Assembly (NCBI GenBank): GCA_013115135.1
Contig: JABANP010000225.1
Location: forward strand, 1 to 64,000
DNA length: 64,000 bases
Direction of reading: 5' to 3'
From: Perkinsus olseni
Lineage: Eukaryota; Perkinsozoa; Perkinsida; Perkinsidae
The translations under genes and the position numbers were made by a program. Of the stretch, positions 20,116 through 64,000 are shown in pieces. Positions within the stretch are counted from its first letter, which is position 1, and every line of letters begins with the position of its first letter. The notes below the pieces were generated by a model. The model saw only the letters and a list, made by a program, of their open reading frames with translations. It had not been told where the DNA came from and did not search any database.

Positions 20116-22499
20116 ATGGTTATGCCTCGTGAACGTAATGAACGTGGACAGTTTATATCCTCTCGTCACAATGCTCCTGGCACTGTGTTACCTGCTGATA
20201 CACGAGATAGTGGTAATAATGATAGGAGGCAAGAAGAAGCTTCCCCTAGTCAGGAGGCAGGTCGTGCTGGAATGGAGAATGGTGGCCTTTTGGATGGTCC
20301 AACTTCAACGAGTCCATCGTTTACAAACCGCCCTGTGCTTCCACCGACCATTAAATCCGGTCTGGGGAATGATCCTAAGACTACTGCGCACTCTTCCCCA
20401 GGTTGGTATTCCCCTTCTGGATCTCCCTTGGGTCTCCGGAATTATTCCGGCCCGCTGGATCGACCCGAACTGGAGAAGATCGTTGGGGATGCAGTGAGTC
20501 GAGCAATGAATAACTTGGTATCTACCCTCGGTTTAACTGGTGGACAAGAACCTTCTGCGACTCAGACTCGAGCCGAACGCCAAAATTTGTCTAGAATCCG
20601 GTCTATCTCTACAAATGGTGGTTACCAACAGGTACGGTTCGAAACTGGCCGTAAGCCTGGAGCTAATCGTGGTGAGAGAGATGAGAATCTTGGCCAGGAT
20701 GCAGCTACTGACTATTATGATAGTGAGCTAGATGATAGTGACGAGGATGTGGATTTACCTTCTCCCGCTCCCCGTTTGACCCGTAAAAGAGTTACTCCTT
20801 CGTCCTTTCCAGCCAAGGCGACTGCAGCTTTGGCCCCGGCTTCTTATGCTATCAATGAGGATATTGATATCACGGATGCCAATAAGGTGGCTAAGGCATG
20901 GAAGTCTTCTGGTCAGTTCCCGAAAATTGATCTCTTCCGTGGTGATACTGATCCTCGTGGCATCCGTCAGTTTTTCTCGTTGGTTACCACTACTCAATCG
21001 TACCGGTTTGCTAATTCTGCTGAGCAGTATTTCTTTGTTTACCGGTGCCTTGATGGTAAACCTTCTCGTCTGGTGGATAAGCATATGAAACATTATCATG
21101 CTTCTCAGACATTTAGCGGCCTGCTCAAGGAGATGTGGAAGGTCTTATATGATGAGTATTCGTAGGGGTGGGCACAAAGTCCGGTCCGGCTGGTCCGGTT
21201 GGTCCGGTCCGGTCCGGTCCGGCTTGCCGGACCGGACCGGACTAATATGAGTCAGTCCGGTCGGTCCGGTTTGGCTAGGTCTGGGTTCGATCCCCGCGAC
21301 ATGCATTTTTCTCGCAACGTCGTCGTATGCCTGTTACATGTTGCTACAGCTCGGCCCGCCCATAGGAGTGGCTTAGAATTGCTTTGCGATGCAGTAGGGG
21401 CTCCAACTCGCATTCGCTGTCGTTTTTTGTCTCCGTAAGCCACCAGAACCGGACCGGGCCGGACCGGACCGGACCGGACTCGTTGTGGCGCACCGGACCG
21501 GAACGGACCGGACTACGCGATTTTAGTCCGGTGCCTACCCCTAAGTATTCGTCGTCTGGAGATTATTTCCAAGTGAGACGGCGCCTCATGGTCATCCGAA
21601 TGGCTTCTGGTGATTATAGCAATATTATCTCCAGATATGAGGATTTCTGTGATGAATTCATCAACTTGGCTGAGCAGCTTCTCGATGACGATGATCTAAG
21701 TGAGAAGGCTTATCGCAAGGAGATAGTTGGATATTTTCTGCATGGTTTAGATCCTGCTGTGACTAGAAGGATAGAGCGAGACTATGAGCCGGAAGAGCTG
21801 GAAGTGATATCTTTCAATACTCTGAAGCATAAGGCTCGTTCCATATGCAGATATCTGGCTTCTAAGACACCATCTACTTTAACCAGCTATGGTACGACCG
21901 CTGTGAATAACCAGGTTAATACTATTTCGACATCCGGTAGTACCGGAACTTCATCTGATTCCCCTTATGCTCGATCGGAATTGATGAAATTTCGGTGCCA
22001 ACGTTGTCGTTCTCAGGACCATCCTACTTATTCATGTCCTCTTACTGTAGCCCCAGGGCTAGATAGTGGAGAAAGATGTGATAAGTGTGGATTGTATCAC
22101 CCGACCGCTGAGGAGAAGATGAGGTGTAAGGCTCGTGACAGCTCTCAGCTGATATGTGTTAGATGTCGTAAGATAGGCCATCTAGCCAGAGCTTGCCCAG
22201 CCAACTTTGCGGATCCACTCCCTAAGGAGGAGAGAAACAAGATCTACCAGAATGCTAAAAATGGTAGGAATCTTTATGATGCAGCGAGAGCAACGCCTGA
22301 TGGCAAGGTCGCCGAGAAAGTGGCGCCAGCTGCTGGTAAATCCGCCGGCATGGCTGTGGTTGAGACGAAGCCTATACCGCAAGAAGGTGATACTCTTGAT
22401 GTTGGTCTATTGAGTGCGGCAGCTGTTCAAGGTTCTCACTTACTTCTAGATCTATTCCGGCCAAGGAGCTGGATAGTCTCTATAGAGCAGTGGAGCTAA
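20116..22499 (+). pseudogene. gag gene of the BEL/Pao-like element, split by a MITE
   Basis: Starts at ATG 20116, 27 bp after the LTR. The frame runs to 21162, is interrupted by a 381-bp hAT-type MITE plus one copy of its 8-bp duplication (21163-21551), and resumes in the same frame at 21552. Without the insert the protein would be about 664 residues. The N-terminal third is low-complexity and Ser/Pro/Asp-rich; a capsid-like region follows (FRGDTDPRGIRQFF...YRCLDGKPSRLV, then IISRYEDFCDEFINLAEQLL). Three zinc motifs lie near the end: CQRCRSQDHPTYSC, CDKCGLYHP with a later Cys, and a classical CCHC knuckle CVRCRKIGHLARAC (about 22157-22198). Its 3' end overlaps the next ORF by 10 bp in the -1 frame. 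Confidence 0.85.
21163..21543. mobile_element. hAT-type MITE inside gag, 381 bp
   Basis: Ends are TAGGGGTGGGCAC and GTGCCTACCCCTA (inverted, one mismatch), and the flanks carry the exact 8-bp duplication AGTATTCG (21155-21162, 21544-21551). TIR and duplication length are typical of hAT elements. The subterminal parts are GGTCCGGTCC-type repeats on the left and ACCGGACCGG-type on the right, able to pair along much of the element. The middle holds a tRNA B-box (GGTTCGATCC, 21284-21293) followed by a T run. It encodes no transposase, so it must be moved in trans. Confidence 0.92.
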
Positions 22500-55126: not shown

Positions 55127-57170
55127 CTACTTCCGGTAGCGCACATCTAAACGCTCTCGTTTGAGCTCTTCTGTACTCGAGCTGGAGTCACTGTCGTCGG
55201 CGGTCTGAGGGCATCCAAAGGTCCCCGGTTCGAACCTCCCTTTCGGCATTATTCACTTCGGAGCTGCCTTCTTTCTCCTTCCTCCCGCTGGCAATTTCCA
55301 GCGCTCCCGTGAAGGTACCAGTCTGAACGAAACGAGTGGTAGTCGGAAGGTCGCAGGTTCGAACCCCACGGTCGTCACCTCAGTCGTTGGTATTCTGACC
55401 CCACTATGAAAAGTGAAAGATTCTCCTGGACGAACGAGAGGCTGAAATAATGATGAAAATCAGCATACAAAACTTCGCTCCGCTAACAAAAAAATCACTA
55501 TCAGCCAGAATTTTGAGGGCACGGTGAATCGCTGGTCTCACGACTGGAAGGTTGAGATGGTTTTCAGCGGAGGAAAAGATATGATCGAAGGATCTAAAAT
55601 TTTCAATCCCCTGCCCTTCTCGAAAACTCGATACGGCCGGTTCTACCATAGCAAATTTCTCGCGCGCCACAAAATAAGTTTCTCACCGTCAAGCCGACCA
55701 CGCCCATGGCCTCTTCGCTGCCCGGGTTGATATCAGCGAAGATCTGAAAACCGGGGAGATGTGGAATGTCCGTGTTAAATCCACACTGCCATCGAAAATT
55801 TGGAAATTTCGGAAAAATGGGGAAAATTGTCGATTCATTTTGTCTCTGCGCAGCCTTCAGCGGCGTTGACATACTTGGGCACAGAGAGCCGTGACGCTTG
55901 ACGTCCGTATAGCGCAAAGATATTTTCTTCCGGCCAGGTGTGTTCATCCGATCAGTACCAGGGCTGTAGTCCAGCCGACCACAGGTCGCCTTGGCCTTTG
56001 TGGTCACCGACGGTTAGTCCGCCTCTTCGCGAAGACGTTAGTGGAACAACCCGACTTGAAGAGGCAGTACCAAGGATACCATCCCCGGCCTGTGAATTTC
56101 GATTCGGCAAGAAATTAGTCTAATTCGCTTCGGTTGAAGAGAGTGAAACAGCAGATTGAGGAATGCACTGCTGACCCCGTCTCGGGTGTTGTGTCCTGAA
56201 TCAGTTGGCCGGTAAGGTCCAGTTCATGTGAAGACTCGTTAACTCTCAACGGGACATACGATTTCGGTTGGCTGAGTTGTAGGGAAGAGCAATGAAGGGA
56301 TAAAACTCACACCAGTGAGGAAAGCCAACGGTCGCTCGAAGCGGCGAGAGCAGAGTTTTAGATCTAACGAAAGCAAGGCGAACTGTTGCATAAAATTTTG
56401 CTGGTCTGCCCGACCACCCTTCCTCCTCACGTGGTCATCAGCGTCCCGAAAAGTGTAATTTCGGCCAAGTATTCGATACTCGTTATTCTGATGGAGATTG
56501 TGTATGGTTATGCGATATGTGTATACCTGAAGGGAAAATGTCGTCGCCGAGGATCGAACCCGGGATCTATCACGTAGGTCCGCTTGGACGGATCGGCAGG
56601 CTGAGGGGCGTCTTGGCAATAACCGGTAGCCACCTGATAAAGATACTCCTGGATCGATCACGTGATCGATTTGACCTGTATCATTAATCCAGCTTGTGGA
56701 TCGACGCGTTGGAAGTTACTCGCGTTTAACACAGATTGTTCGGATACGTATCTGACAGCCACCTGTGCATGCGTGCTAATCGAATCATATCTTAGTAACC
56801 TACTTGACGGTTTCAAAAAGAGTGTCTTCCTCTTCTCGAGGAGCCACAACAACCTTGTTGTCATCTTCGCAGAGCAGCGGTCTGAAAGATGATAATCCAA
56901 AGGCCCCGGGTTCTATTCCCACGCATGACATACCGTAACAATCGATCTTTTAGGCGACCGATTGAAAGCCCCGAGACCCTTGCTGGGCGGCTGTCGGAAT
57001 CACAACCACTCGGGATTGACTTCGATACCAGCTGAAGGGAATCTTTGAGGTCGACTCAGGGAGTATCTTTGGCCATCGTGTTCTGCCAGCTCGAAAGATA
57101 CTACATGGAATTTGAGAGCCTTTTCGGCTGTATACGCCAACTCGGATACTCGAACAACGTTGGTAGTCAT
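55127..57170 (-). CDS. ApaG-domain protein, 10 exons
   Basis: Model (minus strand): 57170-57102, 57031-56934, 56881-56804, 56751-56676, 56633-56574, 56526-56431, 55743-55687, 55441-55379, 55322-55257, 55204-55127; 246 residues, all GT-AG. The C-terminal half is an ApaG (DUF525) domain: YVYTYRITIHN, YRILGRNYTFRDADD, then GVVGLT, PLVRPGESFTFHSGVRIPTTE and TGTFTGALEI. This matches the family pattern of a Y-x-I-x-I-x-N strand, a GVVG loop, a PG-x-x-F-x-Y/F-x-SG strand and a TGxMxGxY-like end. In eukaryotes ApaG occurs in FBXO3 and POLDIP2, where it mediates protein contacts. The N-terminal ~110 residues are unassigned and the tail is acidic (TADDSDSSSS) then basic. Four introns carry tRNA-like sequence. 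It is divergent from the helicase gene. Confidence 0.82.
55205..55256 (-). other. tRNA-like intron (ApaG intron 9, 52 bp)
   Basis: Contains the B-box GGTTCGAACC (55227-55236). On the plus strand it reads GGTCTGAGGGCATCCAAAGG then CCCCGGTTCGAACC, like the 3' half of a tRNA. It has the same length and layout as ApaG intron 2 (shared CCTTTGGAT...TCAG, followed in both by exon ACCGC). Confidence 0.8.
55323..55378 (-). other. tRNA-like intron (ApaG intron 8, 56 bp)
   Basis: Holds GGTTCGAACC (55356-55365) in the context GGTCGCAGGTTCGAACCCC on the plus strand; helicase intron 11 has the same GGTCGCAGGTTCGA on its antisense strand. Confidence 0.8.
56527..56573 (-). other. tRNA-like intron (ApaG intron 5, 47 bp)
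   Basis: In gene orientation it contains CGGGTTCGATCCTCGGCGAC then ATTTTCCC: T-arm, acceptor-like stem and T run, the same order as in helicase intron 10 and J-protein intron 2. The segment is also open in frame, so retention cannot be excluded. Confidence 0.65.
56882..56933 (-). other. tRNA-like intron (ApaG intron 2, 52 bp)
   Basis: B-box variant GGTTCTATTC (56909-56918, plus strand, antisense to the gene). Same length as intron 9 and shares CCTTTGGAT and the acceptor context. Confidence 0.75.
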
Positions 57171-58107
57171 TGAATATCCTGAAAGAGAATCTTGAGGTCG
57201 AGCGTGCAAGATACAAAATGGGTCAAGCCGTCGACCTCGCCCCCAGAAGTCGATTTGACAGGGGTAGTTCGTCTGCAACAGTTGTCGGCCATCCATCAGA
57301 TTGACGATCTTCCCACCTGAGAGTATCTTATCAACCTAGTTAGCCACGAAAAGAAGTCGAGTAGAGGTGATAGAAGTATCTTATCGACCTAGTAAGATAC
57401 GAAATGGGTCGAATAGGAGAACAAGTAGTATCTTATCAGCTCAGTGAGATGTAAAAGTGGTCGAGACGAGTATCTTATCGCCCTAGGAAGATGTGAAATT
57501 CATCGGAATAACGCGATAGAAATATCTAATCGACCTAGTAAGATACAAAATAGGTCAACTAGAAGCATTTTCTCCCAACTTACTCTTCCTCATTTGCCTC
57601 AGCAACATCACCGTCAACGACCTTCTTATCGACCGAGGACCCTTCGCCGTCAACTCCGTCATAAAAGTCACTTAAACCATGCAACCTCTTTCACACCATC
57701 CATCCTGCGCCAAATCGATCATCAGGGCTCGCGCTTTTCTACCGCTGCGTCAGTCTGGCACGTAGACGCCGTTGGTGACCGTCCGGCGTTGCTTTTCATT
57801 TAATAAGCCCTTCAGGTGACCCCTCGGGGGTTGGATGATTTCTAGTGTCCTTCTCGCACTGGAATCGGAGTATTTGTGGGGAAGGAGTGGTATGGGAATA
57901 TTCTGTTGCTTTGGGAAGGCTGAGGGAATATTAACTGGGTGAGATTGAAAATATCCGAGGTTGAAGCTTGCTCGATACGCTACATCAAGATACTTATAAT
58001 AATTATTAGAGGAGAGGTTCCCTCTTCTGTCCTCTGTCCAATGTTCTCTATTTTACACTTTCTTCATCAATAATAGTTACTTCTTCTTTCCCTGTCTATT
58101 TCCCACC
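57171..58107. promoter_or_regulatory. Divergent intergenic region with hairpin repeats
   Basis: Lies between the start codons of the ApaG (minus) and helicase (plus) genes and so must hold both promoters. From 57176 to 57556 there are six or seven copies of a ~40-bp unit with a palindromic core such as GTATCTTATCGACC...TAAGATAC (57376-57400), followed by AAATGGGTCGA. From about 57560 to 57830 there is an open plus-strand stretch without family signal. No TATA box or other named promoter element could be fixed. Confidence 0.6.
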
Positions 58108-61130
<3,023 letters not shown>

Positions 61131-61561
61131 GTTATTCTATGATTGCCTCGGATCAACCTAAGATTCGCCGTCTCTTCTGCTCGGCCATCGATACTGTTTG
61201 TTTCTTCCCTCTACTGTAATTTACATCATCACCATCACGTCTATAAATTACCACTGGATCGTTGACGATTAGTTTCTCTCGCAAGTTGGCATAAGCGTAT
61301 CTTAGGTCGAAGCTGGCATGCGGCAGAATTATACCGATTGTCATCACTACGTCAGAAATTATTCCTCTCACACTCAGCGCTGAAATTCCTCAGCGCCCGC
61401 AGCCGGAAGATTTTTCTCCACCCAAGGATACTCCAATTTTGGGGTGAGAAGTATTTCCGCTGTATCTATACAGTTGGTATTGAATGTTGTGTTGGGGGTA
61501 TCCTAGGTTGAAGCTAGTAAGATACAGAATAGGTTAAGTTTGGGTTCTCCCATTTGTCGAT
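61131..61561. promoter_or_regulatory. Intergenic region between helicase and TMA7-like gene
   Basis: Contains two more hairpin-repeat units: one at 61297-61320 and a full one at 61498-61536 (ATCCTAGGTTGAAGCTAGTA then AGATACAGAATAGGTTAAG), the latter ending about 25 bp before the TMA7 start codon. That unit matches 58482-58520 inside the helicase gene. Confidence 0.6.
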
Positions 61562-62048
61562 ATGAGTCGTCATATTCAAGGCGGAAAGGCTAAGCCGCTC
61601 AAGGCTCCCAAGTCGGGCAAGCACGATGACGCCGATACTATCGCCATGAAGAAGCAGATGGTAGGCCTTTCTCATACCACATTTTTCGTAACTCTCGGTG
61701 ATCTTGGATGATATCTCGTCAACACGACGTATCTCCTTCCTTAACATTTCCGTTATGACAGCGGTTCTGGTGGTTCTCTCCGTCGCTTTTCTTTGGAATA
61801 AAAACTAGCGTCTTTCGTGTTCGTTTTGGTCATCTTATACTAGTAATAATGATCCAGGTTTGGTCTTCGAATTTTTGTCGTCAAATTTTTCGAATGAAAA
61901 GAGGTCCTCCCCTGTGTTCGGGTTTTCTTCAATTCTTCGCGGAAATATTTCTTGTTGTTATCAATACTTTGTTTTTCAGAATGAAAAGAAGGCCGCCGAG
62001 AAGGCCGCCGCGAAGGCGTTGATGGCGAAGAAGAAGAGTATTAAATAA
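61562..62048 (+). CDS. TMA7: TMA7-like small ribosome-associated protein
   Basis: Two exons, 61562-61660 and 61980-62048; 55 residues. The first exon gives MSRHIQGGKAKPLKAPKSGK and an acidic stretch; the second gives NEKKAAEKAAAKALMAKKK. This follows the TMA7 family layout (GGK-x-KPLKxPK start, acidic middle, Lys/Ala helix with a basic end). The usual length is about 64 residues, so this one lacks part of the Gly-rich tail. TMA7 associates with ribosomes in yeast and its role in translation is not well defined. The intron (61661-61979) is T-rich and ends TTTTTCAG. Confidence 0.85.
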
Positions 62049-62167
62049 GAAGAAGATTATTCACTCTCACTGACTGATAGCATTTCCAAAAATTCCTTTT
62101 TTCCCGTTGGGTTGTCAATCGGGTTACCGTCACTGCGCCACGAAATTGCTCTTCAGCGTTCTCATGT

Positions 62168-64000
62168 ATGTCATCATCGTCACCGGCAGAGTTTAAGGAT
62201 TTTTATGAAGTTTTGGGGATTTGCCCTACGGCCACTGATGCCGAGATAAAGACAGCGTAGTAATGGGAAGAGGGCGTTGAGGAAATTCAAGATTTCAAGA
62301 TTTGGCGAGATGCTGGTATGGAAATACTTCGCAGTTGGAGGTTTGAGTTTCAATTACCATTGAACTTTTGAGAGATGGTGAGAAAGTAGAAATTATCAAC
62401 TCGCTGTTATGTTCTCGAGAGATTTCTCACCGGGACGCGAGGAAAGTGCGCGAAGAGGTCATTCCAGTACGTCGTTAGGTGGCGGCCTAGTAGAGGCAGA
62501 GAAGTGCTTTCGATTCGAGTAGAATGACAAAGTACAAGATTCAATTTTCTATTGACATAATACTTGAAGGAAGGGTAGAGGGTAGAGAAAATTTTTTTAA
62601 ATTTCGGTAATGTTGTAGATGTTTTTTGAGAAAATTCTCGTCTTGTAGAGGAAAGAAAGTGTTGCGAAGAGAGGGTATGGGAACCGAAGCAAGGTGGGAA
62701 GTACTCGAAAGGAGGACGGCTGGGGGTTGAGAAAAAATCATTTTTCCCTTTCTCGATAATTCCCGTCGTTGTTGTCCGTAATAATTGCTCCCGGGAAATT
62801 CCCGAAAATTTGTATACAACTTCCCCACTTTCGATGAGAGGGTAACATCGAATCTTGCGATCTGAATGAAGGCTGCAAAATGTGAATCGTTGGCGTGAGT
62901 GAGTTCAACGCCGAGAATAAGGCTTCATTAGACTAGCACCTAGGATGCACCTTTTCCTGGGGGATATGTTCTACCCGTTCTTCTCATCGGTAGATCGTTG
63001 GCTGTCTTTTTTTACTCACAGAGCGAAAGTATTTGAAAATTTGCCGTATGATTGAGGGCATCTCAGTTGAAGTGTATAAATAAAACCTAGTAATAATAAA
63101 ATCTAAGTATAACATAGTGTTGTAAATATTAATGCAGGACTGAGAGTTGTTGGGGATCTCTCCTCGAGGACTTTCGTACCGGTTGATAACGTGCGTCCGG
63201 CAATTAAAGTGTTAAGAATAGGTAAAGATTTTTTATATTTAATAAATCTTAATTTTTTACTATAAAATTTGGAATCTTGAATGTTATCAGTTTGAAACTA
63301 TTGATAGGCACCTGTATGTTCCAGTTCGTGAGGTTATCATAATAGCACCATGGGAACTCTTTCTCCCTCTTTTTTGGGTGCGCCTCAAGCCATCTTCGAC
63401 GCTGAGTATTGGAGGATTCTAACTCGAGAATTGTGGGATTTACGGTATGCGAGGGCTTTTTTTAGGTATCGAGAGACGATTAAATTATGGCATCCTGATA
63501 AGCATAAAGGGGACGGCAGAGAGGAGGCCTTGGGGAAGAGTCAGATGATTAATGAAGCTTATGCGGTACTGAGGATAGGGCGCGGGTTCGATCCTCGCCA
63601 GCGGCGTTTTTCCGGAATATATTGCTGTCTGTGAGGTACTGAGGGATCCAGACAAGCGGCAGAAGTTTGATATCGAGTTGCTGAAAAATCGGCGTGCCCG
63701 CGCGGATGTAAAAAAGGGGGCCGGGAATTTCGTGGCGCAGTGACGGTTGCTAGGCTGCCAAAGAGGAAGGAAATAACTGCTATCGGGCGTCAAAGTTCGA
63801 TGAAGCGGTTCAACACTACAGTCGGGCTATCGAGTTGGACAACACTAATCATGTATACTATAGGTGGGTGGAAATCGATCAGCTGGGCGCGCGCTAAATT
63901 CATGAGGTTAGTAATCGGTCTACAGCGTATGCTGCACTGGCGAAGTGGGGTGAAAGTCGGGAGGATGCTGAGAAATGCGTAAGTGAGAGCAAGATTGCAA
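62168..64000 (+). CDS. J-domain plus TPR co-chaperone, 3' end outside the window
   Basis: Exons: 62168-62256, 63466-63565, 63636-63707, 63754-63863, 63912 to beyond 64000. The J-domain begins almost at the N-terminus (EFKDFYEVLGICPTATDAEI), crosses a 1.2-kb intron inside the A-Y codon pair, and has the HPD motif (LWHPDKHKGD) needed to stimulate Hsp70, then NEAYAVLRDPDKRQKF. After a short linker comes a TPR unit (EEGNNCYRASKFDEAVQHYS, RAIELDNTNHVYYSNRSTAY, WGESREDAEKC) with the Asn-Arg-Ser of Hsp70/Hsp90-binding TPRs. Intron 2 is flanked by a 10-bp direct repeat. A Met at 63350 would extend exon 2 upstream but would destroy the J-domain start, so I reject it. Confidence 0.85.
63566..63635 (+). 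other. tRNA-like intron with target duplication (J-protein intron 2, 70 bp)
   Basis: Contains GGGCGCGGGTTCGATCCTCG (B-box 63585-63594) then CAGCGGCGTTTTTCC. The 10-bp sequence GGTACTGAGG occurs at 63565-63574 and again at 63635-63644. The first copy supplies the GT donor; the base before the second copy's GT completes the AG acceptor. Removing the intron leaves the conserved AVLRDP reading intact. Confidence 0.92.
63708..63753 (+). other. J-protein intron 3 with A-box-like sequence (46 bp)
   Basis: Carries AATTTCGTGGCGCAGTGACG, related to helicase intron 1 and ApaG intron 7 and resembling a tRNA A-box. Confidence 0.65.
63864..63911 (+). other. J-protein intron 4 (48 bp), copy of the helicase intron 7 type
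   Basis: GAAATCGATCAGCTGGGCGC then GCGCTAAATTCATGA; see 60019-60067. It interrupts the TPR between the second base and third base of a Ser codon. Confidence 0.8.

Follow-up and report, generated by a model that had tools for sequence, protein, structure and literature searches.

Short introns of Perkinsus olseni that resemble a tRNA 3' half are probable members of a dispersed, tRNA-derived introner family

The locus and its tRNA-like introns

The window studied here is a 64,000-nucleotide stretch of the genome of Perkinsus olseni (contig C141 of a 61.5-Mb, 968-contig assembly), in which introns of three adjacent genes, encoding an ApaG-domain protein, a DDX5/DBP2-type RNA helicase and a J-protein, hold segments resembling part of a transfer RNA (tRNA). 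An earlier note on this sequence had described seven introns of 47–96 bp, each with a tRNA B-box, and had proposed that they are tRNA-derived introners, elements that seed introns. All seven segments are present, at the positions given below. The size range holds for five of the introns, of which the tRNA-like segment forms the main part (47 and 52 bp in the ApaG gene, 47 and 96 bp in the helicase gene, 70 bp in the J-protein gene), whereas the two remaining ApaG copies are embedded in introns of ~702 and ~364 bp, as judged from the exon ends of a public protein, P0241.

In the ApaG-domain gene, on the reverse strand, the 52-bp intron (55205..55256) consists mostly of an antisense element that reads on the forward strand, with its T-arm at 55227-55236, and the 47-bp intron (56527..56573) mostly of a sense element (GTGATAGATCCCGGGTTCGATCC...TTTTCCCTTCAG). 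P0241, which has 305 amino acids, is continuous across both (GSSE|TADD and KRTY|VYTYR, respectively). The two long introns, with junctions unrefined, span 55323..55686 and 56881..57582 and carry antisense copies, with the T-arm at 55356-55365 in the former and the copy near 56891-56930 in the latter. The helicase gene (58108..61130, forward strand; 13 exons, 12 introns) encodes a spliced protein 100% identical over 532 aa to a P. olseni protein. Its intron 10 (60673..60719, 47 bp) carries a sense element (GTAGGTCGCGGGTTCGATTC...GTTTTTCGGTGGTCAG) within motif VI (HRIG|RTGRAG), and intron 11 (60830..60925, 96 bp) carries an antisense element with its T-arm at 60849-60858 on the reverse strand. 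Finally, the J-protein intron (63566..63635, forward strand, 70 bp) places a sense element within the DnaJ domain (NEAYA|VLRDP), and a Pfam DnaJ match in the spliced peptide spans the junction. All three sense copies run from T-arm through an acceptor-like stretch to a T-run, as had been described, and sense and antisense copies alike make up most of some introns.

The segments were scored with a tRNA 3'-half profile trained solely on ten real tRNA 3' halves from the same genome. In order along the window they reached 27.1, 21.2, 25.6, 19.2, 22.4, 26.7 and 19.2 bits, and none of 127,920 positions of the reversed window scored as high as any of the seven. Likewise, the pattern GGTTCGANNC matched the window 12 times against 2.7 expected, a count reached in 0 of 100 shuffles; these matches fall in ten distinct places, two of them palindromic and counted on both strands.

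Elsewhere in the window, a GGTCCGGTCCGG-rich stretch at 21217-21293 ends in an eighth tRNA-like copy of 12.3 bits, a score reached by 3 of the 127,920 control positions.

Reading frames and protein matches across the segments

All exons of the 12-intron helicase model are open. Joined over introns 10 and 11, the peptide aligns to human DDX17 without a gap at either junction, and proteins of P. olseni, P. chesapeaki and P. marinus are continuous over the same places, though the introns themselves need not be present in the other two species. Of the five short introns in the window, four are bridged by public P. olseni proteins. The match of the ApaG product to its Pfam family is weak (E = 0.0026, below the family cut-off).

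Outside the window, we fetched 20 loci of 10 kb that were picked for holding matches, giving a sampled set of 264 kb with the window included. Automatic intron calling with a codon model produced several wrong introns and separated elements only weakly from random positions, and element introns were therefore fixed by hand and translated (n = 24). Those outside the window, of 47–62 bp, lie in genes for two SNF2-type ATPases, a metallophosphatase, a histidine-kinase-type ATPase, an L7Ae-type protein, a thiamine pyrophosphate (TPP) enzyme and a malic enzyme; the TPP-enzyme gene has two, one per orientation. When ten spliced peptides, two of them spanning two element introns each, were compared with Pfam, eight matched across the junction, while the malic-enzyme match ended five residues short of it and the peptide from locus L029 had no match. 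Among the hand-read introns, a similar element thus occupies many non-homologous positions in unrelated genes, the pattern by which introners are recognised. Judging from reading frames and sequence, these segments would be spliced out in the cell.

A dispersed family with the body of a tRNA 3' half

Using the same pattern read backwards, or reversed sequence, as control, we counted the motif throughout the genome. Copies of the core AGGTCNNNGGTTCGANNC number 1,137, as opposed to 5 of its backwards form (~230-fold), and those of exact GGTTCGATCC 1,682 as opposed to 97 (17-fold). The phenomenon extends well beyond the seven introns of the earlier note. Chance or base composition as the source of the likeness is ruled out by these excesses and by the profile controls, including the 127,920 empty control positions of the window, and its probability is negligible.

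When sites from the window and the 20 loci were aligned, a conserved block extended from about −18 to +26 around GGTTCGA and was preceded by near-random sequence. The consensus, GGCAATCGAAAGGTCCCGGGTTCGATCCCCGCGCCCGGCATTTTT, reads as the 3' anticodon arm, variable loop, T-arm, 3' acceptor strand and A73 of a tRNA followed by a T-run, that is, a tRNA 3' half and then TTTTT. The B-box likeness first noticed is therefore real but part of a wider one. A profile of the family found 102 places of at least 14 bits in the 264 kb and none in the reversed control; the tRNA 3'-half profile found 83 of at least 16 bits (at most seven of them training tRNA genes) against 0, and this tRNA-only profile recovered the same places. 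In 114 kb not selected for matches there were 22 copies, three being tRNA genes and one, in locus L035, a duplicate of the J-protein copy of the window. Scaling from this small sample suggests, as a rough figure, a genome-wide copy number in the thousands.

The copies are not tRNA genes. In the window, ARAGORN reported no tRNA and the Rfam tRNA model had no match up to E = 10. An A-box-like match was found in 12 of 96 copies (chance 1.9%), about five of the 12 being tRNA genes, and the pairing of A-box and B-box at tRNA spacing, by which a tRNA-derived short interspersed nuclear element (SINE) is recognised, was absent as a general feature of the 96 copies. A SINE usually retains both boxes, at its 5' end. 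We also sought a full-length source with an A-box: upstream AGTGGT or TTGGT patterns gave 10 and 1 matches (controls 0), and eight of the 10 proved to be one repeat with an internal tRNA-like stretch, in which ARAGORN finds no tRNA. Eight places of this repeat match the pattern and three copies were read; it is a possible source of the element family. The tRNA-like stretch inside it (AGTGGTATGGAGGTTAAGGTAACGGGTTATCAATCCAAAGGTCGCGGGTTCGATCC) was noted at L043, L044 and L045 (contigs C25, C334 and C482).

Among the ten isoacceptors recovered, the GTAATC type of element is closest, by a small margin, to tRNA-Arg(UCU) (23 of 31 positions; Pro and Thr, 22). The family profile gives its top score to Pro(CGG) (36.5 bits; Arg, 31.3), a ranking within the recovered isoacceptors rather than all tRNAs and with the Val score void. 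Separately, tRNA-Arg(UCU) genes were seen in all ten top loci (L001-L010), at scattered places, some adjoining altered copies.

Splice-site positions relative to the element

Splice-site offsets were measured in 95 copies, leaving out five tRNA genes. GTR donors peaked at −17 (11; background 3.0, standard deviation (SD) 1.7), with smaller peaks at −20 (8) and −10 (7). In antisense orientation, donors peaked at +26/+27 (7 and 8; background 2.2, SD 1.4) and acceptors at −20 (9; background 2.4, SD 1.4). Units beginning GTAATC and ending CAG numbered 32, and those from GTAGGTC to CAG 48, against 0 in controls for either. Such GT-to-CAG units span 33–69 bases and recur at many places. Some rows are redundant. 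By eye, 23 of the 32 GTAATC units were retained as not near-duplicates. The 48 GTAGGTC units include two that overlap tRNA genes (C17, C945), six that come from just two places (C439) with alternative ends, and a near-identical set of five (C25, C187, C473). As CAG was demanded, introns with other acceptors are missed by these counts.

Origin of the introns

We consider it likely that these introns are members of a dispersed repeat family made of a tRNA 3' half and a T-run, and that this family represents a tRNA-derived introner that is old and decayed. As such it is predicted to have entered exons as a mobile element and to be excised by the spliceosome. In sense copies the donor would be GTAATC, on the anticodon-loop side, or GTAGGTC, in the variable loop, and the T-run would sit at the place of the polypyrimidine tract; in antisense copies the reversed CATTATTAC-like end would supply the donor, and the opposite end the acceptor. 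Copying would presumably follow a SINE-like route of RNA polymerase III (Pol III) type, the insertion itself would create the intron, and copies would later decay into ordinary introns. Of the original proposal of tRNA-derived introners, the match to a tRNA 3' half with T-run stands, while the proposed creation of introns by insertion is a further step, which has to contend with an unlike intron in a paralogue (C33, below).

The duplicated parts of the window bear on the history of individual introns. C55 holds second copies of positions 58155-62937 (91.6% identity; 58155 being the limit of the fetched sequence for this comparison) and 63192-64000 (93.0%), and parts are duplicated in C274 as well; the element introns are kept in both. 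Intron 10 of the helicase gene measures 65 bp in C55, where GTAGGTTG and GTAATCGAAAGGTC occur together. The window and C274 have a 47-bp form, and the C55 and window forms differ by an 18-nt deletion. Distant DEAD-box paralogues such as C201, C85 and C177 are uninterrupted at the intron-10 site. The malic-enzyme intron (C6) is absent from both C68 paralogues; a search for paralogues of the TPP-enzyme gene returned its own locus alone. The presence/absence variation seen is solely between diverged paralogues.

Flanking sequence gives one clear case. The J-protein intron is bounded by a 10-bp direct repeat, GGTACTGAGG, on the forward strand, whose left copy (63565..63574) supplies the donor GT and whose right copy (63635..63644) begins where the acceptor AG ends, at 63635, setting AG|GT as in the scheme for transposon insertion. 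It is the best flank repeat of 100 copies, and a score of at least 10 occurs in 0.1% of swapped flank pairs.

Several observations weigh against this origin. Beyond the J-protein intron and its duplicates, the 100 copies show no excess of a general target-site duplication, and flank repeats in 21 hand-read introns (the 24 hand-delimited ones less six with less clear flanks, plus three others) gave p = 0.11. While sense donors and both kinds of antisense site cluster at set offsets from the element, sense acceptors do not: 109 YAG were found at +22 to +59 in the 95 copies against 116 expected. At score 14 the codon-based intron model, itself poor, called introns at 26% of 110 elements and at 12% of 1,000 random positions; at score 18 the shares were 4% and 2%, respectively. 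Computational gene prediction may be the source of the public proteins that bridge the introns. In paralogue C33 the site of helicase intron 10 is occupied by a 53-bp intron in which no tRNA-like sequence is recognisable by eye, and C279 and C194 have an intron 3 nt from that site. The malic paralogues are just 54–57% identical, and the direction of change is not given by the comparison. Finally, the T-stem pairs show no covariation among 96 copies, about five of which are tRNA genes. This speaks against an RNA structure under selection and disfavours an origin from many intact tRNAs; the copies therefore give the impression of decay and not of recent derivation from intact tRNAs.

A rather unlikely alternative draws on several of the same facts: a tRNA-derived, SINE-like repeat could have entered introns that already existed, with deletion afterwards trimming them to the usual 45–60 bp, so that the repeat made no introns. 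The unlike intron of C33, the 18-nt deletion in intron 10 (65 bp in the C55 duplicate, 47 bp in the window), the two ApaG copies within long introns and the lack of general target-site repeats would all agree with such a history. Trimming, however, is not expected to yield recurrent GT-to-CAG units of 33–69 bases or donors at fixed offsets in both orientations, and the absence of the malic-enzyme intron from two paralogues also speaks against it.

It is more improbable still that the segments were kept for a function of the B-box (e.g. TFIIIC binding), or that tRNA halves were captured singly in the repair of DNA breaks. Conservation is stronger in the T-arm core than elsewhere, though the search selects for that core; the acceptor stretch varies as if it came from several sources, and flanking repeats are mostly absent. 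Against either idea, the T-run follows directly on A73 and the GTAATC and GTAGGTC starts are common across copies, as in a family, and T-stem pairs without covariation are unlike what intact tRNA donors would leave.

An extended form of the introner origin, which we put forward tentatively and hold as possible rather than probable, is that a Pol III-type tRNA-half element served as an RNA-copied intron factory of Perkinsus, producing introns in both orientations. Parts of a tRNA would then have become splice signals: the GT of the anticodon or variable loop a 5' splice site, the terminator T-run a polypyrimidine tract and the reversed terminator end an antisense donor. Several further families of short repeats, lying in introns of these same genes, would have accompanied it.

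Relation to known introners

For introners of diverse eukaryotes, the signatures recognised are of DNA-transposon type: 49 of 130 families have target-site duplications, and 72 of 177 have inverted repeats (Gozashti et al., 2022, PMC9860276, main text). The Perkinsus introns are alike in that dispersed similar sequences form the bulk of introns in unrelated genes and would supply the splice sites themselves, but their body is a tRNA 3' half and they lack a general target-site duplication. The words 'tRNA', 'SINE' and 'Perkins' have 0 occurrences in the main text of that paper. In Amoebophrya, a fairly close relative of Perkinsus, the introner elements are mostly non-canonical introns with inverted repeats of 8–20 nt and direct repeats of 3–5 nt (Farhat et al., 2021, PMC7789003); 'tRNA' appears there twice, one occurrence referring to tRNA synthetases. 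Both systems show repeated introns, a few short direct repeats at exon borders among them, whereas the Perkinsus introns are GT-AG with a tRNA-like body. In transposon insertion at AGGT, as outlined in a review (PMC3443670), one copy of the duplicated target becomes the donor GT and the other the acceptor AG. The J-protein intron fits this scheme; besides its duplicates, none of the 100 copies clearly shows such a repeat.

With tRNA-derived SINEs the family shares a tRNA-like sequence, the B-box with a T-run and many dispersed copies. Unlike SINEs, most Perkinsus copies are without the A-box half, and we found neither a helper-related tail nor a general target-site duplication. No description of tRNA-derived introners was found in the accessible literature on introners, on Perkinsus introns and repeats and on SINE-linked intron gain, with preprints and most subscription papers outside its scope.

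The mechanisms by which genomes gain introns in large numbers are still debated, and the introner signatures recognised in the main text of PMC9860276 are of DNA-transposon type. A tRNA-bodied family, if confirmed, would link intron gain to Pol III transcripts and copying at the RNA level, and would hint at why insertion is tolerated, as a tRNA half already holds donor-like and T-rich stretches. With over a thousand core copies and public proteins of three Perkinsus species, gain and loss are testable by genome comparison.

Other repeats and intron positions

The motif VI intron of the helicase paralogues lies one codon apart in C141 and C33 (ATTG|GT) and in C279 and C194 (GGAC|GT), an offset that could reflect either intron sliding or two separate gains.

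Five of the 12 helicase introns (1, 5, 7, 8 and 9; window 58192-60469) hold an exact 13-mer of other dispersed short repeats (AATTTCGTGGCGC, TATCTTAGGTTGA, GGGCGCGCGCTAA, AGGAAATGCAAGA and CTTCGCTGTGCGC), which occur at 6–18 separate places in 314 kb, counts that are without a chance control. Near matches lie in helicase introns 2 and 12, and further matches to other repeats at 63726-63738 and 63885-63897 of the window. The helicase introns may accordingly come from several introner-like families. At another locus (L024:7052-7200), the short repeat AATTTCGTGGCGCAGTGAC runs head to tail with a spacing of 36 bases.

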